Shown here one piece after another: positions 12,136 to 29,925 of a stretch of 46,827 nucleotides of DNA. Under the pieces are notes generated by a model. The model saw nothing but the letters and a program-made list of their open reading frames with translations. It did no database searches and was not told the DNA's origin. Positions within the stretch are counted from its first letter, which is position 1. Each line of letters opens with the position of its first letter. The stretch is from Planctomicrobium piriforme. GTDB lineage: Bacteria; Planctomycetota; Planctomycetia; Pirellulales; UBA1268. A program made the translations under genes and the position numbers. The stretch lies in the NCBI GenBank assembly GCA_945869735.1, contig CAMBPQ010000020.1, positions 1-46,827 of the forward strand. The letters run 5' to 3'.

Positions 12136-12308
12136 CATCTTAAGGCGCATCCGACTTTGGTGGTGCGGCACGATGGCAACTGGGAGGACGTAGGCGAGGG
12201 GGTCGGCGAACGCACGAGGAGCCTTGGGCGTATCCTCGCCCCGACGACAATCCGCAGGACCGCGCAGCGGCGACTTTTGCCGCCCCCGAGCCGGCGATCC
12301 ACCTCTCC
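12136..12308 (+). repeat. MITE-like repeat, copy 1 (degenerate ends)
   Basis: Begins with ATCTTAAGGCGCATCCGACT, a degenerate form of the family end, continues through GGTCGGCGAACGCACGAGGA and GGGCGTATCCTCGCC, then GCGGCGACTTTTGCCGCCCC and GAGCCGGCGATCCAC. The same blocks occur at 20402, 23545, 29763 (minus orientation) and 44395 (minus). No coding capacity. Lies between the ABC ATPase start and the lipoprotein stop. Confidence 0.75.
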
Positions 12309-14666: not shown

Positions 14667-15955
14667 TGGCCACGCTCCTGATCCGCGGCGGCCGGGTCGT
14701 CGACCCGTCGCAAAACATCGACCGCATCGACGACGTTCTCGTCCGCGACGGGCAGGTGGTGGCGATCGGCCATGGAGATGGCCAGCCACTCGGCAAGGCT
14801 GACGAGACGATCGACGCGGCCGGTCTCGTGGTCGCGCCGGGCCTGGTCGACATGCACGTTCACCTCCGCGAGCCCGGCCGCGAGGAGGACGAGACAATCG
14901 AGACCGGCACGCAGGCCGCGGTGGCCGGGGGCTTCACCAGCGTCGCCTGCATCCCCAACACCGAGCCGCCGATCGATACGCAGGCCACTGTCGAGTTCAT
15001 CCACCAAAAGGCGGCACGAGCCGACACCTGCAACGTGTTCGTCGTCGCCTGCGTGAGCCGCAACCGCGAGGGCAAGGAGCTCGCGGACATCGGCCAGCTC
15101 GTGGAGGCGGGCGCGGTCGCGTTCAGCGACGACGGCGCCCCGGTCTACGACGCCGAGTTGATGCGGCGGGCCCTTGAATACTGCCGGATGTTCGACAAGC
15201 CGATCCTGGCCCACGAGGAGGTGCTCGAGCTTTCGCGTGGCGGTGTGATGAACGAAGGACTCGTCTCGCTTGTGCTCGGCCTGGGCGGCATGCCGGCGGC
15301 CGCCGAGGAGGTGATGATCGGCCGCGATATCGCGCTGTCCGAGGTGACGCGTGGCCGCCTTCACGCCATGCATGTCTCCACGGCAGGGGGCGTCGCTCTG
15401 ATCCGCGAGGCCAAGAAACGGGGCGCCCGCGTTACCGCCGAGGCCTGTCCCCATCACTTCACACTCACCGACGAGAGCCTCCGCGGCTTTGATTCCAACT
15501 TCAAGATGAGTCCTCCGCTGCGGACGCAGGCCGATATCGAGGCGATCATCGACGGTCTCGTCGACGGCACGATCGACTGCATTGCCACCGATCATGCCCC
15601 GCACGCCCGTGAAAAGAAGATGCTCGAACTCGACCGGGCGCCGTTTGGCATCCTTGGCCTTGAGACCGCGGTGGGCCTGTCCGTCACGCGACTGGTAGCC
15701 ACCGGCCGCATTGGCTGGCCACGGCTGATCGAGGCGATGAGTACGCTGCCCGCGCAGATCCTCGGCATCAACCGTGGCACGCTGCGACCCGGCGCTGTCG
15801 CCGACATCACGTTGATTGATCCCAATCTCTCGTGGCGGGTTGACGTGGCCTCGTTTCGCTCCAAAAGCGTCAACTCGCCGTTTGACGGCTGGACGCTGCA
15901 GGGCAGGGCGGTGACCACGATCGTGGGTGGACGTGTGAAATACCGGCTGCCGTAG
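14666..15955 (+). CDS. pyrC: Dihydroorotase, class I
   Basis: 429 residues. Interconverts N-carbamoyl-aspartate and dihydroorotate. Metal ligands DMHVHLREPG (about residue 60), the Asp of FSDDGAPV (about 155), EACPHHFTLT (about 260) and ATDHAPHA (about 308) are present, as in Bacillus/Aquifex-type enzymes. Overlaps pyrB by one base, with GAGG upstream. In Aquifex the class I dihydroorotase and PyrB form a joint dodecamer; the tight coupling here suits the same idea, which is inference. Followed after one base by the NYN-domain gene. Confidence 0.97.
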   Translation: MATLLIRGGRVVDPSQNIDRIDDVLVRDGQVVAIGHGDGQPLGKADETIDAAGLVVAPGLVDMHVHLREPGREEDETIETGTQAAVAGGFTSVACIPNTEPPIDTQATVEFIHQKAARADTCNVFVVACVSRNREGKELADIGQLVEAGAVAFSDDGAPVYDAELMRRALEYCRMFDKPILAHEEVLELSRGGVMNEGLVSLVLGLGGMPAAAEEVMIGRDIALSEVTRGRLHAMHVSTAGGVALIREAKKRGARVTAEACPHHFTLTDESLRGFDSNFKMSPPLRTQADIEAIIDGLVDGTIDCIATDHAPHAREKKMLELDRAPFGILGLETAVGLSVTRLVATGRIGWPRLIEAMSTLPAQILGINRGTLRPGAVADITLIDPNLSWRVDVASFRSKSVNSPFDGWTLQGRAVTTIVGGRVKYRLP

Positions 15956-19016: not shown

Positions 19017-20405
19017 ATGTTTGCCATGCATCCGCTGACCACCCTTCAACGCGTGCGTCTCCTGGTGCCGGTCGCCGTTGCCATGGCCGTGCTCGCTCCC
19101 CGATTCGCAATGGCCCAGTTCGGCGGCGGCGGTTTCGGCCAGCAGCAGGCGGTGGGTGGCATCTCAGTCAGCACCGCGGGCATCGTCGGGAACCTCGAGC
19201 CGTTGGCTCTTGAGTCGCTCGCGGCCGAACGGAGTAAAGCACTGGCCGACTCGAAGTGGTCCGGCAAGGCCGGCGACGCCAGAAAGGTGTCGCTCAAGGC
19301 CGTCGCGGTGGCAGCGCAGGAGTCGGTGGCGAAATCCGTTGCCCTGTCGCCTGAGGTCGTCTTCCTCGGCGGGCTCCAGCGGATCGAGCATGTTTTCGTT
19401 GACCCTGATAACCATGACATCGTTCTCTCTGGGCCGGCCGAATCGCTTGCCGTGGACGCCACAGGCACGGTGGTCGGCGTCACCAGCCGGCGGCCACCGC
19501 TGCATCTTGAGGATCTCATCGTGTCGCTGCGGGCCATCGACGCCGCCCGCGCTGGCGGCATGACCTGCTCGATCGATCCAACTCCCGAAGGCATCGCGAA
19601 GCTGCAAGACCTGCTGCGTCGCCAGACCACGATGGGCTCTCATCCGAAGGCGACGTTCGCTGCCATGGAGGAGGCTCTCGGCCCGCAGCGGGTGACGGTG
19701 GCGGGCGTGCCGGCCGATAGCCGATTCGCGCGGGTCCTCGTGGCGGCTGACTACCGCCTGAAGCGGATCGGCATGGGACTTGAAGCGTCGGGGCTGAAGG
19801 AGCTGCCGAGTTATCTGGCCATGGTGCCCGCTGGCGGTAGGGCCACATCGTTGCCACGGTTTTGGCTGGAGGCGGAGTATGACCCGATCGCCCGCGACCC
19901 CGACGAACTCGCCTGGCGGCTCTCAGGCCGGCGGATGAAGTGCCTCACCGAGAGCGACGTCGCCGGCGACAAGGGCATGAAGCGGGGCGCTGCCCCGGCC
20001 GACGCCGTTGCCCGCAGGTGGTGCGATGCGATGACGGCCAGCTACGACACGCTCGCTGCGAAGCAGTCTATTTTTGCCGAGCTGACCAACTGCATCGATC
20101 TCGCCGTCGTGGCGGCGCTCATCCATGGCCGGCAGCTTGATAAGCGGGCCGGTTGCGACCTCGCAGCGCTCGTCGATCCCGCCACGCTGTCGCTGCCGAA
20201 ATACGATGTTCCCACGACCGTGCCCACAGTCGCGACGGGCGTCAAGAAGGGCTCCAACTGGGTGCTCTCGGCGTCGGGGGGCGTGAAGTTTCAGCCCTGG
20301 CAGTTTGCCGCCAACACAGCCGTCGCCGCCGACATGGCCGCCATCCGCACGCTCGCGCTGGCGGCTCGGCCGGCCGACAGTGCTGCGGGATGCTCGTGGG
20401 ACTAA
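19017..20405 (+). CDS. DUF1598-type secreted protein of planctomycetes
   Basis: 462 residues. N-terminal signal peptide (about residues 1-33, ending FAMA-Q), then FGGGGFGQQQAVGG low-complexity, then a long domain with LSPEVVFLGGLQRIEHVFVD, GPAESLAVD and GVTSRRPPLHLEDL that I recognise as the DUF1598 type known mainly from planctomycetes. Exported, with no membrane anchor visible. Single gene with its own ribosome site. The TAA stop (20403-20405) lies inside the end sequence of a MITE-like repeat, so the repeat may have set the C-terminus. Confidence 0.8.
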   Translation: MFAMHPLTTLQRVRLLVPVAVAMAVLAPRFAMAQFGGGGFGQQQAVGGISVSTAGIVGNLEPLALESLAAERSKALADSKWSGKAGDARKVSLKAVAVAAQESVAKSVALSPEVVFLGGLQRIEHVFVDPDNHDIVLSGPAESLAVDATGTVVGVTSRRPPLHLEDLIVSLRAIDAARAGGMTCSIDPTPEGIAKLQDLLRRQTTMGSHPKATFAAMEEALGPQRVTVAGVPADSRFARVLVAADYRLKRIGMGLEASGLKELPSYLAMVPAGGRATSLPRFWLEAEYDPIARDPDELAWRLSGRRMKCLTESDVAGDKGMKRGAAPADAVARRWCDAMTASYDTLAAKQSIFAELTNCIDLAVVAALIHGRQLDKRAGCDLAALVDPATLSLPKYDVPTTVPTVATGVKKGSNWVLSASGGVKFQPWQFAANTAVAADMAAIRTLALAARPADSAAGCSWD

Positions 20406-20556
20406 AGCGAATCTGCCTTTGGTGGAGCGGGGCGGGGTGCTACCCGCATTCCCAGCGCTCGCGCTTGGGGCTTCCTGATCGAAGTCACCCCCGGCGACAA
20501 TCCGCAGGACCGCGCAGCGGCGACTTTTGCGGCCCCCGAGCCGGCGATCCGCGTAC
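20402..20556 (+). repeat. MITE-like repeat, copy 2, chimeric with hairpin repeat
   Basis: Starts CTAAAGCGAATCTGCCTTTG (variant of the CTAGAGCG end) exactly over the stop codon of the DUF1598 gene. It then contains a hairpin core (20451-20478) and resumes with CGGCGACAATCCGCAGGACC, GCGGCGACTTTTGCGGCCCC and GAGCCGGCGATCC as in copy 1. The right end is not sharp. Looks like one repeat inserted in another. Confidence 0.7.
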
Positions 20557-20577: not shown

Positions 20578-21189
20578 TCACGCCGCGGAATCTGAGTTTA
20601 CAGCTGGGGCCGCCCACTGAATCACAACCACCGGCGCCGCAGCGACCGGGAACTGCTGATCCACCCAGCCGGCTTCCGAAAGGTCGATGAGCCGCGAAGC
20701 GGGGCAGGGGGGATGAACGCTCTTTGCCAGCAGGAGATGGGCACCGCACGAGACCGCGACCGCCGCGGCGATCGAGTCACTGGTCACGTGCCAGCCTGCC
20801 GGAAGCTCGAAGAGGCAACCTCCGCGGCTGAGCCAGGCGGCTGCGTCGAGCACCACGGGCGCCTGTGTTCTGGCCGGCTCCGCGGCGAACGTGCCGCTGA
20901 TCGCGTCGGCAACGAGCCGGCCCGTCAGCCCCATAGCGTCGATCGCCAGCCGATGCATCAGTTCAGCGGGGCGCGGATTCACTCCGTCGATCGACCGCAG
21001 AGCGTCGACGACCGCACCACCCCCGACGACCACGGTGGCCGGCCCCGGCACCCCGGCAAGGAGGATGCGGAGTTCCTCCGGCCAACGCGGTCGCGTGAGC
21101 AGACTGCCGCCGAACTTGATAATCCACGAGGTGCCATCGTCAGAATGGCTCGGACCGCGAATCACGCCCTGTTGCCAGGCAGGCATCAT
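20578..21189 (-). CDS. Amino acid kinase-fold protein, MfnE-like (methanofuran synthesis)
   Basis: 203 residues from ATG 21189, which overlaps the stop of the preceding gene (ATGA). Amino-acid-kinase motifs IIKFGGSLL (about residues 22-30) and VVVGGGAVVDAL (about 51-62), then VTSDSIAAAVA near 138 that matches the T-SDS motif of the family. Archaeal MfnE phosphorylates the aminomethyl-furan phosphate to the diphosphate used in methanofuran assembly. The MfnE assignment rests on the neighbours, a MfnF-like and a MfnD-like protein; the fold alone would also fit other small kinases. Short for the family. Confidence 0.75.
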   Translation of the reverse strand: MMPAWQQGVIRGPSHSDDGTSWIIKFGGSLLTRPRWPEELRILLAGVPGPATVVVGGGAVVDALRSIDGVNPRPAELMHRLAIDAMGLTGRLVADAISGTFAAEPARTQAPVVLDAAAWLSRGGCLFELPAGWHVTSDSIAAAVAVSCGAHLLLAKSVHPPCPASRLIDLSEAGWVDQQFPVAAAPVVVIQWAAPAVNSDSAA

Positions 21190-22226
21190 GGCAAGGCCTC
21201 CTGGGCGATCAGGGCGAGGGCATGAGCCGGCGCACACCGCGACACGCCGGCCCCGAGCGTCGCCGGCAGCGAGAGCGTGTCGACGGTCCAGCCCAAGCGG
21301 GCAAGAGCCATCCGCGCGAGCCGCGCACCGTGACCGGAGATGATGACCTCCCGCGGCCGCCAGCCGCACGAGCGGGCCACGGAGTCAATCGCCCGTGCGA
21401 CCGTCCGCGCCTGCGCCTCGGCACACCAACGGGCGGCGTGGACCGCATCGCCGGAAGACAGATCGGCCGGCTCCAGGAGCATCGAGCGGGCAATCCTGAC
21501 CCGGGCAGCGTCGCTGGTGAGCGGCCCACCGTCGGCCGTGTCGCAGGGCTCCTCCGACTCCGCCAGTTCACCGAGCAGCACCCACACATCGCGCGAATCC
21601 GCGAATCGCTCACCCGCCACCGGCCGCCGCAGCCGTCCGTGGGGCAGCGTTCGCACCAGCGCCGGCAGGGGCGTTCGTTCGACTCCGGTGTAGACGAGTT
21701 CCTTCGATAGCATGCGGCCGGGATCGTCACGGGCCAGCGGGGCCGGGACACGATCGGCGAGTGGAACGACGTCGGTGGTCGTCGAGCCGATGTCGATGAG
21801 CATCGCGCGGTCTCGCGTCGCGGAGGCGGCGGCCAGCCGCGCCACCGCATGCCAGTTGGATGCGGCGGCCTCGAGGGAACGTGCCCGTGCCTCCGACGGC
21901 GGCACGATCCGGCCGGAGGTGAGGTAGATGCCCGATTCGCCGCAGCCGCACGCCTCGGCAGCCGCGACGATCGCCGACACGATGTGGTCCACGCCGACCG
22001 TCCGCGAGAGAAAGCAGTCGGCGATCTCGCCCGTCATCGTGGCGACGACCCGCCGTGGCGACGCCTCACCGATGATCCGTGCCAGGGCAGCGGGAAGCCG
22101 CTGCCACTCCCGCCACATCGCAAACGGCTCGCTGTGCGTCCAGCCCCAGCCGTCGGCCGCCTTGAGATTGGCTCCACCGACGTCAAGCGCGAGCACGTCG
22201 GGTCGAGGCCGGTCAGGCTGGGACAT
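21186..22226 (-). CDS. H4MPT-linked C1 transfer protein, MfnF-like (hydantoinase/oxoprolinase superfamily)
   Basis: 346 residues from ATG 22226, overlapping the preceding gene by 14 bases. ASKHA-type motifs are clear: DVLALDVGGANLKAADG near residue 10 (phosphate 1) and AMLIDIGSTTTDVVPLADR near 140 (phosphate 2), with TMTGEIADCF near 66 and ISGHGARLARMAL near 307. This matches the family annotated as H4MPT-linked C1 transfer pathway protein, to which archaeal MfnF (condensation of the furan diphosphate with glutamyl-tyramine) belongs. Works in cofactor synthesis for formaldehyde oxidation in bacteria with H4MPT enzymes. Confidence 0.83.
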   Translation of the reverse strand: MSQPDRPRPDVLALDVGGANLKAADGWGWTHSEPFAMWREWQRLPAALARIIGEASPRRVVATMTGEIADCFLSRTVGVDHIVSAIVAAAEACGCGESGIYLTSGRIVPPSEARARSLEAAASNWHAVARLAAASATRDRAMLIDIGSTTTDVVPLADRVPAPLARDDPGRMLSKELVYTGVERTPLPALVRTLPHGRLRRPVAGERFADSRDVWVLLGELAESEEPCDTADGGPLTSDAARVRIARSMLLEPADLSSGDAVHAARWCAEAQARTVARAIDSVARSCGWRPREVIISGHGARLARMALARLGWTVDTLSLPATLGAGVSRCAPAHALALIAQEALP

Positions 22227-23253
22227 CTTCGGAGAGTGAGAAGGCGACTGGAAACACATCTGGCACCGAGGACCGCCGGGAGATCGCCACGTCGACGATC
22301 ACCCGTACGAGGCCGGCGGCACCGGCGGCACCAAGCCCCACGAATGACGTCGTCAGCCGCGGGTTGACCTCGAGCACGCGATCATCGAGCCCATCATCAC
22401 GGTCTCCGAGGATCATATCGACTCCGACCCAGCCCGCCTGCGTCCCCCCGCCGGCACGGGCGACGGCCGCAACCGCCCTGACCGCCAGCCGCTCAGCCCG
22501 CCCCGCGAGTGCCGGCGCGCCCAGCGGATCACCACCCAGGTACATCGGCCGCCGACCGCCGGAAAACCGCTGCCGCATTGCCGGCAACGGCAGGATGCCG
22601 GCCGGCCCGACGAGACACGACACGCCGACGGCCAGCCCTGCGACGAAAGCCTCGAGCCGCGTGGGCATCACGGCAGACGGAGGGGGAGCCTCGCCGTACC
22701 GGACGACAACGAGGTCGTCGCAGCCCGTGCCGTCGCGGGCCTTGCGAACCGCGGGAGGGCGGAACCAGCGCGGCCATTCCTCGCCCGCCTGCAGCGAACG
22801 GCCCGCCGGCACGGGCACGCCGGCCGCGGCGAGCGCATCGATCGTGGCCTGCTTGTCGGAAGCGATGACGATAAAGCCGTTGCTCGGTGCGAGCACCTCG
22901 CCGCCCGCCGCACGAATGGCCGCGATGCGGGCACCGAATATGCCCGCCGTCTCGGGTGCCACGACCAGCGTCGCGTCGACCCGCAGCGACTCATCGACGA
23001 GCATCTCAATCTCGGCGCCACAAGGCACCGATCGCACCCGGACGCCGGCGGGCACGTCGATCCCTGACCGTTCATCGACCAGCGCCGTCACCTCGAAGCC
23101 GCCATCTCCCACGGCATCGGCGAGCAGGCCGCGAAATATCGCCCGCCCCTCGCAGGCCAGAGCCGCGACGTTGTCTCCGTCGCGCACGACGCGTCGCGCA
23201 TCGGGACCCGAAAGCCCCCCGGAACAGCACCACTCGTGGATGAGAAGCCGCAT
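22213..23253 (-). CDS. ATP-grasp ligase, MfnD-like (tyramine-glutamate ligase type)
   Basis: 346 residues from ATG 23253. Starts MRLLIHEWCCSGGL, then a Rossmann-like N-domain. APSNGFIVIASDKQATIDAL (about residues 120-140) matches the ATP-grasp entry helix with its conserved D-K. The C-terminal metal site is GWVGVDMIL and EVNPRLTTSFVGL (about 285-317). Archaeal MfnD joins glutamate to tyramine in methanofuran synthesis; ATP-grasp proteins of this kind travel with bacterial H4MPT genes. First of a tight three-gene unit with MfnF-like and MfnE-like proteins. GAGG lies only 2 nt before the ATG, so an earlier start is possible. The exact substrate in bacteria is unproven here. Confidence 0.78.
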   Translation of the reverse strand: MRLLIHEWCCSGGLSGPDARRVVRDGDNVAALACEGRAIFRGLLADAVGDGGFEVTALVDERSGIDVPAGVRVRSVPCGAEIEMLVDESLRVDATLVVAPETAGIFGARIAAIRAAGGEVLAPSNGFIVIASDKQATIDALAAAGVPVPAGRSLQAGEEWPRWFRPPAVRKARDGTGCDDLVVVRYGEAPPPSAVMPTRLEAFVAGLAVGVSCLVGPAGILPLPAMRQRFSGGRRPMYLGGDPLGAPALAGRAERLAVRAVAAVARAGGGTQAGWVGVDMILGDRDDGLDDRVLEVNPRLTTSFVGLGAAGAAGLVRVIVDVAISRRSSVPDVFPVAFSLSEDVPA

Positions 23254-23288: not shown

Positions 23289-23544
23289 GGCTCTGTCTGA
23301 AAACGGTCTGGTGAGCGGAGAAGTCGATCTGTGTGGGGTCTCCCAGCAAGGAGGCTGGCCACCATGAAGCAACACGAAGTCACGGACGAACAATGGGAAG
23401 TTTTTTACATCCATTATCCCCAAACGTACAGCGAAGACGGGGCGCCGACCATCGCCCCCGCGTGTGATGCTCAACGGCATTCTCTGGATTCTCCGTACAG
23501 GGTCACCCTGGCGGGACCTGCCCGAGCGGTTCGGTCCAGCTTGG
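23289..23544 (+). mobile_element. IS5-type transposase relic (DUF4096 N-domain), frameshifted and truncated
   Basis: A possible left end GGCTCTGTCTGAAAACGG (23289) is followed by AAGGAGG and ATG 23364. The frame reads [10 protein letters not shown], as in DUF4096 of IS5-family proteins, then breaks; the next frame reads [20 protein letters not shown] and RFGPAW, the hallmark of this domain. It then stops abruptly at a MITE-like repeat. No DDE domain and no right end. A fossil, not active. Confidence 0.85.
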
Positions 23545-23661
23545 AGGAGGAAGGCAAGGGGGTCGGCGAACGCTCGAGGAGCCTTGGGCGTATCCTCGCC
23601 CCGGCGACGAGACTTTTGCCGACCCCGAGCCGGCGTTCCACGGAAGTCGAATGCGCTCTAG
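23545..23661 (+). repeat. MITE-like repeat, copy 3 (left end missing)
   Basis: Begins in GGAAGGCAAGGGGGTCGGCG next to the IS relic, carries AACGCTCGAGGAGCCTTGGG and GCGTATCCTCGCCCCGGCGA, and ends GGAAGTCGAATGCGCTCTAG at 23661. The CTAG of that end supplies the TAG stop of the Rieske-DUF59 gene on the minus strand (23658-23660). Confidence 0.8.
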
Positions 23662-24431
23662 AAGATCCCGAGTTGGTCCCGACCCGCGTCGGTCATGCGG
23701 TCAGGCGTCCACGGTGGCTCCATCACGATCCGCACCTCCACCGCCGCGACCTCCGGGCTCGCCGCTACGCACCGCTTTGTGTCGGCGATGAGCTGCGGGC
23801 CGGCCGGACAGGCGGGGCTTGTCATCGTCATGTCGATCGCGACGTGCTGCCTGCCCGGCACGTCGGATGATGGAGAGAGCGTGACACCGTAGATGAGTCC
23901 CAGATCGACGATGTTGACGAACAGTTCGGGATCCTTGACATCCTTGAGCATCTCGCGGACGCGATCTTCGCAGAGCGGGCCAGCATCGCCTGCCGCGACC
24001 GTGGATCCAACGGCAGTGACTGGCGTCACGGTGGCAGCGGACGTCGTCACGGGCAGCGCCGAGGCCGCCGGCGGTGCAGCAAGGGTGCCATGCAATGGCG
24101 GACCACCGGCGACGGCCTCCGCCCGCAGCCGAACCCACACCCCACCGTGCTCGACCTTCACATCGTGGGCCCGCGTCGACCGCACGGCCGGCATGGAGAG
24201 GGCCGCGCCCGTGCGGATGTCAAACTTCGCACCGTGCCGGGGGCAGGCGATCTTGTGGTCGCGGAGTTCGCCGTCGGCGAGCGGCCCGCCGTCGTGTGTG
24301 CAGACGTCGTCGATCGCATAAAAGACGCCCTCGACGTGAAAGATCGCCACCATGTCGCCATCGACTTCAACGAGTGTCTTGCCCGGGTCGGGAATCTCGG
24401 CGATGTCAGCGACACGGATGTAGTCGGCCAT
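23658..24431 (-). CDS. Rieske ferredoxin fused to DUF59/SufT-type Fe-S assembly protein
   Basis: 257 residues from ATG 24431; upstream frame is discarded as repeat. Residues 1-105 are a Rieske domain of the ferredoxin type: cluster ligands C44-T-H46 and C63-P-R-H66. A linker rich in A, T, P and V (about 115-150) leads to a DUF59/MIP18 domain (about 155-250: [45 protein letters not shown] with the conserved Cys). DUF59 proteins (SufT, PaaD-like) help mature Fe-S proteins. Sitting last in a suf run, the fusion could pass electrons and clusters in one chain, which is inference. Stop codon lies within a MITE-like repeat end. Confidence 0.9.
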
Positions 24432-24537
24432 GATCAGGGGTTCCAGGCGTGTCGGACGGCGTGGGAGGGTGTCGGAAACACCGGCCGGGTTCCCGTTGCT
24501 CGCGCTTCGGGCTTCCTGCTGGTGGATGGGGCAGCAG
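24432..24537. repeat. Short intergenic spacer with hairpin repeat, copy e (24492-24518)
   Basis: The core CCCGTTGCTCGCGCTTCGGG plus CTTCCTG is a variant of the hairpin family. It separates sufD from the Rieske-DUF59 gene, both on the minus strand, and could lower or end readthrough. No T run follows, so I do not call a classic terminator. Confidence 0.65.
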
Positions 24538-25932
24538 TCAGGTGATCCGGCGGATGCGGCTGCTGATCGCGCGGGCCAGCGCCTCGCGAACCTGCGGAAT
24601 CGTGATCCGGTCGAACACCTGTTGAAAAAAGCCGGCGACGACGAGCCGGGCGGCCTCGTCGGCCGAAAGGCCACGCGCCATGCAATAAAAGATCTGCTCG
24701 GCATCGACGCGGCCGCTCGTCGCGCCGTGGGTGCAGCGGACGTCGTCGGCCTCGATCTCGAGGCCGGGGATCGAATCGGCGCGAGCCTCGTTCGAGAGCA
24801 TGAGGTTGTCGTTGCGCTGGTAGCCGTTGGTCTTCTGGGCAGCCTTGTCGACCTTGATCATGCCACGCCAGACGAGCCGGCTGCGATCCTGGAGAGCGCC
24901 CTTGTAGAGCAGGTCACTTCGGCAGGAGGGAGCCTCGTGGTGCTGGAGCGTGTTGTAGACGAGGTGCTGTCGGCCCTCCGTGAACATCACGCCGTTGACC
25001 TGCGCGTCGGCCCCACGACCGACGAGCGCGACGTCTTGGGCCACCTGCGAGAGTCGGCTGCCGAGAGCGCCAAGCGTCCACTGCAGCCGTCCGTTCTCGT
25101 GGACAACGGCCCGCTGCCTCGCGAGGTGCCAGACGCCGGTATTCCAGTTCTGGAGGTTCACCATTCGCAGCAAGCCGCCCCTGCCAACCACGATCTCGGT
25201 GCCTCCGCAGTGGAAGCCACCGGCGCCGCCAGCCGGACCGCCGCCGGCCGTCTCCGTGAGCACCGTCGCCTCGGCGCCCTCGTCGAGCACGACCAGCACG
25301 TGTGAGGTGTCGACTCCGCCTTCGCTGATCCCCGAGATCACATGCAGCGGTGCGGCGATCCGCACCCGGGGCGGCACGTAGAGCACAACGCTCGCGGCAT
25401 GAAACGCGGCATGCAAGGCCGCGAACCAATCGCATTCGGAGTCGATCACGGAGAACCAGTGCGGCCGGAAAAGCTCAGGGTGGGCCGCGAGGAGACGGTC
25501 GGAGGCGCCGAAGACAACGCCTTGTGCGGCAAGAGCAGGGTCGAGTTCGTCACGGACAACATGCCCGTCGACCGCCGCAAACCGACCGCCGAGGGTCGCA
25601 GACCCGACGGGCTTGGCGGCCACCTCGAAGTCGGCATACGAGTCGTCGGCAAGGTCACCGGACAGAATGGCCGGGGCGAGCAGTCCTTCCGGCGCCGCAT
25701 CACCCTCAGCCGGCGCGGGGCGGGGGCCCCATGCCTTCGGCTTGAAGAGCCGCAGGTCGGTCCGCATCCAGTTTTCGTTTCGGCGATCGGGCAGTGCAAG
25801 CGACCCGAACCGCTCGAACGCCTGCCGACGGGCGTCGATCGCCCATTCCGGCAGCGCAGACGAACCGACAAGCCTATCGAGCGAGTCACGGTCGAACGCG
25901 GGAGCAGAAGGAATGACGGTGGAGGTGCTCAT
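24538..25932 (-). CDS. sufD: Fe-S cluster assembly scaffold subunit SufD
   Basis: 464 residues. Forms the SufBC2D complex. SufB/D core beta-helix features near the C-terminus: LYKGALQDRSRLVWRGMIKV, NDNLMLSNEARADSIPGLEI and CTHGATSGRVDAEQIFYCMA, including the conserved His. Longer N-domain than in E. coli SufD. Starts 10 nt after the sufB stop, so both are surely co-transcribed. Confidence 0.96.
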   Translation of the reverse strand: MSTSTVIPSAPAFDRDSLDRLVGSSALPEWAIDARRQAFERFGSLALPDRRNENWMRTDLRLFKPKAWGPRPAPAEGDAAPEGLLAPAILSGDLADDSYADFEVAAKPVGSATLGGRFAAVDGHVVRDELDPALAAQGVVFGASDRLLAAHPELFRPHWFSVIDSECDWFAALHAAFHAASVVLYVPPRVRIAAPLHVISGISEGGVDTSHVLVVLDEGAEATVLTETAGGGPAGGAGGFHCGGTEIVVGRGGLLRMVNLQNWNTGVWHLARQRAVVHENGRLQWTLGALGSRLSQVAQDVALVGRGADAQVNGVMFTEGRQHLVYNTLQHHEAPSCRSDLLYKGALQDRSRLVWRGMIKVDKAAQKTNGYQRNDNLMLSNEARADSIPGLEIEADDVRCTHGATSGRVDAEQIFYCMARGLSADEAARLVVAGFFQQVFDRITIPQVREALARAISSRIRRIT

Positions 25933-25942
25933 GATCGGCGCG

Positions 25943-27355
25943 TCAGCCCACGGACCCTTCCATTTGCAGTTGAATGAGCTTGTTCATCTCGACGGCGTAT
26001 TCCATCGGCAGCTCCTTGACGAGCGGCTCGATGAATCCGCTGACGATCATGGTGCTCGCCTCGGCCTCGGAGAGGCCCCGGCTCATCAGATAGAAGAGCT
26101 GCTCCTCGCCGATCTTCGAGACGCTCGCCTCGTGGCCGATCGAGACGTCCTGTTCCTCGATCTCGATGTAGGGGTAGGTGTCACTGCGGCTCTTGTCATC
26201 AAGAATGAGCGCGTCGCAGACAACGCTCGACTTGCTCTTCTTTGCCCCCGGCTCAACTTTCACGAGACCGCGGTAGCTGGCCCGACCGCCGTTCTTGGAG
26301 ATGCTCTTGGAGACGATCCGACCGCTGGTGTGCGGGGCTGCGTGCACAAGTTTGGCACCGGCGTCCTGATGCTGGCCTGCCGAGGCGAAGGCGATCGAGA
26401 GAATCTCGCCGCGGGCGCCTGGCTCCATCATGTAGACCGCCGGATACTTCATCGTCAGGTGGCTACCGAGATTGCCATCGATCCACTCCATCATCGAGTC
26501 GCCGTAGGCCATCGCCCGCTTGGTGACGAGGTTGTAGATGTTGTTGGCCCAGTTTTGGATCGTCGTGTAGCGGCAGCGTCCGCCCCGCTTGACTACGATC
26601 TCCACCACGGCCGAGTGCAGGCTCTCGGTGGAATACATCGGGGCCGTGCAGCCCTCGACGTAGTGCACCTGAGCCCCTTCGTCGACGATGATCAGTGTCC
26701 GCTCGAACTGCCCCATGCTCTCGGCGTTGATGCGGAAGTAGGCCTGGAGAGGAAACTCGATCTTCACTCCCTTGGGCACGTAGATGAACGAGCCCCCCGA
26801 CCAGACGGCCGAGTTGAGCGCGGCGAACTTGTTGTCGGTGGGCGAGATGATCTTCCCGAAATACTCACGCAGCAGGTCGGAGTGCTCGCGGATGGCGGTG
26901 TCGGTGTCGGTAAAGATCACACCCTTCTTGGCGAGATCCTCCTGCAGCGAGCCATAGACCACTTCGCTCTCGAACTGCGCTTTCACGCCGGAGAGAAACT
27001 TCCGCTCCGCCTCGGGAATGCCCAGCCGGTCGAACGTCTTCTTGATGGCGTCGGGCACCTCTTCCCATGTCTTGCCCTGCTGCTCGGCCGGCTTGAGGTA
27101 GTAGAAGATTTCCTGGAAGTCGATGCCGATCCGGCCGCCCCAGTGGGGCATCGGCTTCGAGTTGAAGATCTCGAGCGACTTGAGGCGGAAATCACGCATC
27201 CACGCGGGCTCGCCCTTCATCTCCGAGATCTGCGAGACGATCGTCGCATCGATGCCCCGTCGCGCCTTGAAGATGGCGGGGGAATCGGTACGGAAGTCGT
27301 ATTTGTTGATCTCGCCCAAGGCGAGCGTCGAGGATTCTTCGATTCCAGTGGACAT
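25943..27355 (-). CDS. sufB: Fe-S cluster assembly protein SufB
   Basis: 470 residues, AGGAG 7 nt before ATG. Highly conserved SufB sequence, for example [40 protein letters not shown] (with the conserved Cys), and the [20 protein letters not shown] and [20 protein letters not shown] stretches near the end. Scaffold for cluster formation with SufC and SufD. Order sufC-sufB-sufD on the minus strand differs from sufBCD of many bacteria. A 714-codon open frame on the opposite strand is a shadow. Confidence 0.98.
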
Positions 27356-27391
27356 GTTGCTGCTCCTGCGTTGACCGACACAAAGCCCAGG

Positions 27392-28249
27392 CTATACCGA
27401 CACCGCCCGCGCCGACTCCTCCATCACCTTCTCCGCCGCCGCCGCCTCAGGGTAGGCGGCACGGATCCGCTCGTAGCCCCGCTTGTGGAGTTCGGCGGCG
27501 AGGTCGGGCCCGCCCGATTCGACGATCTTCCCTCCGAGCATCACGTGCGTCCTGAGGGGAATGTTGTGTTCGAGCAGTTGCTCGTGGTGAGTGATGATGA
27601 GAATCCCCATCTCAGCACCGCCAATGCGGGCGATGCTCTCGCTTGCGAGCCGGACGGCGTCGGCGTCGAGGCCGCTGTCGGTCTCGTCGAGGATCGCGAA
27701 CTTCGGCCGCAACATGGCGAGTTGCAGAATCTCGGCGCGCTTCATCTCGCCCCCTGAAAACCCATCGTTGACATAGCGGCGGGCAAACTCGGTGTCCATC
27801 GAGAGCTCACCCATCTTGTTCTTGAGTTCCGTGCGGAACTCACGCATCGGCATCAGTTCGTGCCCCTCCTTGCGGTCAGGGTTGCGGACGTTGGTCACCG
27901 CGTGGCGGAGAAAGTCCGCGAGCCGGACGCCGGGGATCGACATCGGCCGCTGGAAGGCGAGAAACAAGCCTACGCGGGCACGTTGGTCAGGCTCCATCGC
28001 GAGGATGTCATGCCGCGTGCCGTCGGCATCGATGAGCTCGATCGTTCCCGCCGACACCTCGTACGACGGATGGCCCATGATCGCGTAGCCGAGCGTGCTC
28101 TTTCCGGAACCATTGGGCCCCATGAGCGCGTGGATTTCGCCGCGGCCGATCTCGAGATCGACGCCCTTGAGGATCTCCTGCCCCTCGACGGAGACGTGGA
28201 GGTTGGAGATGACGAGCGTTTCTTTTGCGGCGTGGGTCATGGGTGTCAT
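27392..28249 (-). CDS. sufC: Fe-S cluster assembly ATPase SufC
   Basis: 285 residues. Walker A GPNGSGKST (about 44-52), signature FSGGEMKRAEILQ (about 169), Walker B FAILDETDSGLDADAV (about 187), typical of SufC (ETDSGLD in place of the transporter EPTSALD). Drives SufBCD conformational change. A C-terminal tail of ~25 residues is longer than usual. Starts 29 nt after nuoB. ATG 28240 is an alternative start; neither has a strong ribosome site. Confidence 0.97.
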   Translation of the reverse strand: MTPMTHAAKETLVISNLHVSVEGQEILKGVDLEIGRGEIHALMGPNGSGKSTLGYAIMGHPSYEVSAGTIELIDADGTRHDILAMEPDQRARVGLFLAFQRPMSIPGVRLADFLRHAVTNVRNPDRKEGHELMPMREFRTELKNKMGELSMDTEFARRYVNDGFSGGEMKRAEILQLAMLRPKFAILDETDSGLDADAVRLASESIARIGGAEMGILIITHHEQLLEHNIPLRTHVMLGGKIVESGGPDLAAELHKRGYERIRAAYPEAAAAEKVMEESARAVSV

Positions 28250-29762: not shown

Positions 29763-29925
29763 CTAGAGCGGATTCGACTTACGTGTATCGCCGGCTTCGG
29801 GGGCGGCAAAAGTCTCGTCGCCGGGGCGAGGATACGCCCAAGGCTCCTCGAGCGTTCGCCGACCCCTTTGCCTCCCTTTTCCAGTTTGCCAAGTCGCCGC
29901 TACAGCTATCCGAGATTCGCTCTAG
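29763..29925 (-). repeat. MITE-like repeat, copy 4 (most complete, both ends present)
   Basis: 163 bp bounded by inverted CTAGAGCG (29763-29770) and CGCTCTAG (29918-29925). Inside, on the minus strand, run GGTCGGCGAACGCTCGAGGA, GCCTTGGGCGTATCCTCGCC and GACTTTTGCCGCCCCCGAAG, then CCGGCGATACACGTAAGTCG. No coding capacity. Lies between the suf promoter and a small membrane protein gene. Defines the family. Confidence 0.85.

Follow-up and report, generated by a model that had tools for sequence, protein, structure and literature searches.

What do three overlapping genes in the genome of a planctomycete make together? The genome (order Pirellulales; 3.17 Mb, 95% complete) contains a stretch of 46,827 nucleotides, referred to as the window, and on its minus strand three complete open reading frames follow one another without a gap. 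A sequence-only reading had described them as genes overlapping by 4-14 bases for an ATP-grasp ligase, a hydantoinase-type protein with two ASKHA phosphate motifs and a small amino-acid kinase, and had likened them to mfnD, mfnF and mfnE of methanofuran synthesis. The reading frames lie at the following positions:

22213-23253, minus strand: mfnD-like ATP-grasp ligase gene (346 aa, complete ORF)
22213-22226, minus strand: 14-base overlap between the end of mfnD and the start of mfnF (ORF coordinates)
21186-22226, minus strand: mfnF-like hydantoinase/ASKHA gene (TIGR03123, Orf9-type; 346 aa, complete ORF)
21186-21189, minus strand: 4-base overlap between the end of mfnF and the start of mfnE (ORF coordinates)
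20578-21189, minus strand: mfnE-like small amino-acid kinase gene (203 aa, complete ORF)

Both overlaps were thus found as described, and the mfnD-mfnF-mfnE-like unit is probably a co-transcribed operon. Very probably, these three genes build the core of a cofactor of the methanofuran family, methylofuran being the likeliest, which would serve H4MPT-dependent formaldehyde oxidation. The analysis shows homology, matching folds and conserved motifs, a recurring gene order, co-occurrence and most of the pathway genes; from these we infer the reactions with their substrates, the co-transcription of the three genes and the structure of the end product.

Identity of the three proteins

Each protein matched the Pfam family of its proposed fold above the gathering score, i.e. 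ATP-grasp_3 for the ligase (1.1e-15), Hydantoinase_A for the middle protein (7.7e-15) and AA_kinase for the kinase (3.3e-8). Among the NCBIfam profiles the best family matches were MfnD, MfnF (and TIGR03123) and MfnE, respectively.

The middle protein matched TIGR03123 ("probable H4MPT-linked C1 transfer pathway protein") at 1.2e-66 with 225.2 bits (cut-off 244.1) and over nearly the full length (residues 14-341 against positions 3-326 of the 327 in the profile), and it matched MfnF (NF040623) at 3.5e-41 with 141.4 bits (cut-off 520). Both ASKHA motifs were present, DVGGANLK at residues 15-22 and DIGSTTTD at residues 145-152, and their key residues were invariant in 18 homologues. In the PDB an archaeal MfnF-type protein (3c0b/3cet) was matched over almost the entire length (3.2e-34). 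From these matches and motifs we identify the middle protein as a divergent MfnF homologue.

For the ligase the top NCBIfam match was MfnD (NF040722) at 5.4e-10, with 39.2 bits against an equivalog cut-off of 400 bits, and for the kinase it was MfnE (NF040622) at 3.3e-6, with 26.9 bits against a cut-off of 300. When the NCBIfam profiles were run over alignments of homologues, all 40 ligase homologues matched MfnD and all 40 kinase homologues matched MfnE, in both cases oftener than any other family. Searches of the PDB with single sequences were too weak for these two proteins, but profile searches resolved both: the ligase profile found 3df7, an ATP-grasp protein of Archaeoglobus (3.2e-28), and the kinase profile found 7qrh (2.2e-20, next match 5e-6). 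The predicted structures, with pLDDT values of 93 for the ligase and 94 for the kinase, had the same nearest solved neighbours, namely 3df7 of Archaeoglobus fulgidus for the ligase (Z 31.6, next 26.8; rmsd 2.2 over 282 residues) and 7qrh, the MfnE of Methanococcus vannielii, for the kinase (Z 19.1, next 16.2; rmsd 2.1 over 172 residues). Searched in turn, the aligned part of 3df7 gave an MfnD match of 178.8 bits (1.6e-52), likewise below the 400-bit cut-off.

Among 40 homologues of the ligase the ATP/Mg-binding residues K134, K171, D279 and N297 never varied and E295 hardly did. The kinase had invariant G27, G28, GGG56-58, R65, W133 and D138 and a nearly invariant K25, and its motifs K25, GGSL, GGG, R65, W133 and TSDS were conserved. 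The TDVDG-type segment of the archaeal 7qrh was replaced in the planctomycete kinases across the order, mostly by LLxKS, and going by these sequences the replacement is a real difference of the kinase family. By profile, fold and conserved residues, the ligase is a divergent MfnD homologue and the kinase a divergent MfnE homologue.

Gene order and distribution across the order

Of the 58 genomes of the order, 52 had an MfnF match, and the six genomes without one also had no match to FTR, MfnB, Fae or FhcA (Fisher p 2e-6 to 2e-7 for the co-absence with MfnF in the 58 genomes); these p-values are optimistic given that independent losses are few, the six genomes belonging to just two lineages, namely family f17 and, within family f18, genus g21 (genus g36 of f18 keeps the genes). 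One genome (G053) kept MfnF, MfnD, MfnB and FTR with no Fae or FhcA seen, a pattern that may be due to an assembly gap or to a different use of the cofactor.

MfnF was directly preceded by an MfnD match in 44/52 genomes and directly followed by an MfnE match in 35/52, and the full D-F-E order on one strand was found in 31 of the 52 MfnF-bearing genomes. A separate search of 80 loci and the window found the trio intact in at least 40 of the 69 loci that had room on both sides, which is a lower bound owing to the rule used for ORF starts; the 58-genome and 80-locus sets share members and are not fully independent. Loci were also found in Blastopirellula marina and Lacipirellula limnantheis, two Pirellulales available in culture. 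Since the order recurs on one strand in both sets, the D-F-E layout is not due to chance. Profile matches, fold predictions, residue conservation and gene order thus all support the MfnD-, MfnF- and MfnE-like assignments of the sequence-only reading.

Other pathway genes in the genome

Profile searches found fae, mch, an mtdB/C-like gene, fhcA, fhcB, fhcD and mfnB elsewhere in the genome, so the outcome that the sequence-only reading had named as its own refutation did not arise. Contig C27 carries fae, mch (above cut-off) and a gene for a methylene-H4MPT dehydrogenase with an Mpt_N domain (MtdB/C-like). FTR (FhcD) is encoded on contig C36, and FhcA (above cut-off) on contig C41, where its gene is overlapped by 4 bases by an FhcB-like gene whose product scored 118 bits (below the cut-off of 328). 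MfnB is encoded on contig C62 and a beta-RFAP synthase-like protein, just below cut-off, on contig C66. With FTR and FhcA on contigs C36 and C41, formylmethanofuran genes are, as far as tested, missing from the window, as had been remarked before. A weak FhcA match at 14675-14866 of the window covers profile positions 2-62 only and was taken as amidohydrolase-type, not FhcA. The FhcA of the family to which the genome belongs (L163:6958-8457 and related genomes) matches about the first 510-525 of the 556 profile positions, unlike that of most of the order.

Two further ligase genes were found on contig C27. Directly after mch lies a gene for a MyfB/MptN-like ligase of the RimK type (L070:18043-18948, minus strand; 209.5 bits to MptN, RimK family above cut-off), and divergent from fae lies a gene for a second ATP-grasp_3 protein (L070:9096-10385, minus strand), which scored 23.9 bits to MfnD as compared with 39.2 for the window ligase. 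Given this weaker match, and given that several other genomes likewise have a second MfnD-type match close to fae, the fae-linked protein is read as a MyfA-like candidate, only by its fold, its paralogy to MfnD and its linkage to fae. No Orf17 was recognised by PF00977 in this 95% complete genome, in which HisA and HisF alone scored strongly and no third candidate was seen.

Surroundings of the operon

A repeat some 90 bases long and dispersed in the genome occurs in the window at 23537-23628 and also at 29797-29883, 12165-12300 and 20424-20550, and copies or fragments of it flank the mfn operon on both sides. It can fold into a strong hairpin (-54.7 kcal/mol, z -3.45). Across the genome at least 44 matches to it were counted (40 of 240 candidates were scored), and in the window Rfam matched none of it. 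Just upstream of the mfnD-like gene, at 23364-23560, is a remnant of the N-terminus of an IS4/5-family transposase (DUF4096, 4.7e-10) whose reading seems to change frame. Further upstream, at 23658-28249, is an operon of SUF iron-sulfur cluster genes, which encode SufB and a Rieske-SufT fusion-like protein among others, and a similar SUF neighbourhood was found in relatives of the family (L074, L075). Downstream of the mfn operon, at 19017-20405, a secreted-looking protein of 462 aa is encoded that has no NCBIfam match, and a similar-looking protein adjoins the operon in one relative (L075:8579-9943).

Proposed pathway and its alternatives

In the established pathway MfnD forms gamma-glutamyl-tyramine, MfnB, MfnC and MfnE lead to aminomethylfuran pyrophosphate, and MfnF joins both (PMC8141765). 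Given this reaction order, the operon would cover the last two preparatory steps and the step that joins their products. The predicted substrates of the MfnD-like ligase are glutamate and either tyramine or tyrosine, which it would couple. Aminomethylfuran phosphate would come from the MfnB product via an aminotransferase, and the MfnE-like kinase is predicted to phosphorylate it to the pyrophosphate. The MfnF-like protein would then condense this furan unit with the Glu-tyramine/tyrosine unit, displacing pyrophosphate. The MyfA- and MyfB-like ligases, whose genes neighbour fae and mch, would next add glutamates, and the Fhc complex would use the finished cofactor when formaldehyde is oxidised via H4MPT.

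In Proteobacteria, MyfA and MyfB have been indicated to add glutamates to methylofuran, and several strains carry besides them orf1, a paralogue that is closer to MfnD (PMC8141765). Since candidate MyfA- and MyfB-like ligases are encoded here, the cofactor is predicted to be polyglutamylated and methylofuran-like. For the same reason the earlier label of methanofuran synthesis holds for the pathway but is better replaced by methylofuran synthesis; in addition, all three proteins score too low for the archaeal equivalog cut-offs.

The core may contain tyramine or, as in Methylorubrum, tyrosine, as no convincing MfnA was found in the genome: the candidate PF00282 protein (L072) is closer to diaminobutyrate decarboxylase (168 bits) than to MfnA (46.5 bits), and the MfnA profile TIGR03812 matches so many PLP enzymes that its matches in 57/58 genomes carry little meaning. 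A tyrosine core, for which the MfnD-like protein would be a tyrosine:glutamate ligase, is a variant compatible with the main reading that we entertain tentatively. The lack of MfnA speaks for it, but MfnA homologues are missing as well from 3/6 of the bacteria with the tyramine form, most strains with the tyrosine form have no MfnD homologue (PMC8141765), and the L072 decarboxylase might itself make tyramine. The missing MfnA, together with the undetected Orf17 and the altered MfnE segment, is also the ground for supposing that Planctomycetes make a distinct methanofuran analogue, by means of a ligase and a kinase with other specificities and mechanisms than the archaeal and proteobacterial ones, which we consider unlikely.

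The roles of the two ATP-grasp proteins could also be exchanged, the window ligase being of the MyfA type and adding the second glutamate and the fae-linked protein on C27 being the true MfnD, and the operon would then still belong to the pathway. Both paralogues score weakly to MfnD, MyfA is partly similar to MfnD (PMC8141765), and the 80 loci gave no proteobacterial Orf1 or OrfY sequence with which to anchor a tree of the two. The window ligase, however, has the higher MfnD score, its profile finds an archaeal MfnD-type protein as best structure, and its gene is linked to those of MfnF and MfnE whereas the C27-type paralogue lies near fae in several genomes, so that we hold an exchange of roles to be quite improbable. 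That the three genes do unrelated work (as another ATP-grasp ligase, a hydantoinase and a kinase of the UMP or acetylglutamate type) and are merely co-transcribed is hardly credible, as the low single-sequence scores of the two end genes are outweighed by profile and structure matches in which MfnD- and MfnE-type proteins come clearly first, which led us to reject the other ATP-grasp, UMP-kinase and acetylglutamate-kinase identities, and by the phyletic pattern that the three genes share with the pathway.

Comparison with known systems

The archaeal MfnD, MfnF and MfnE have the same three folds and main motifs as the planctomycete trio, their nearest solved representatives being 3df7, 3c0b/3cet and 7qrh. 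In contrast to the archaeal enzymes, the planctomycete proteins all score below the equivalog cut-offs, the kinase and ligase are only 23-24% identical to 7qrh and 3df7 in structure alignments, and the kinase has no TDVDG-type segment. The methylofuran genes of methylotrophic Proteobacteria comprise orf1/mfnD, orf9/mfnF, orf21/mfnE, orf22/mfnB, myfA, myfB and orf17 (PMC8141765), and of their products homologues of MfnB, MfnD, MfnE and MfnF, a putative MyfB homologue and a MyfA-like candidate were found here, but no Orf17 by PF00977. The planctomycete genes are scattered over several contigs as opposed to one archaeal-like cluster.

In the literature searched we found no direct chemical evidence on which methanofuran analogue Planctomycetes make. 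The compact three-gene unit, which much of the order has kept, and the MyfA- and MyfB-like ligases give a concrete prediction, a polyglutamylated methylofuran, and define genes with which it can be tested. The pathway is ancient and patchily distributed, and it bears on the evolution of H4MPT-linked C1 chemistry in Bacteria and Archaea.

That Planctomycetes carry H4MPT/methanofuran-linked C1 genes, as the sequence-only reading had noted, is known (Chistoserdova 2004, 2013, as cited in PMC5020050), and a bacterial mfnD (orf1) has been described as well (PMC5020050). The pathway and the phylum are the same as those reported, so the novelty is lower than had been implied. Compared with that work as represented in the citing paper, what the present analysis adds to the known planctomycete pathway is a compact D-F-E operon that is conserved in the order, together with separate ligases of a MyfA- and MyfB-like kind. 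It is not a new system but a finding that confirms and fills in something broadly known.
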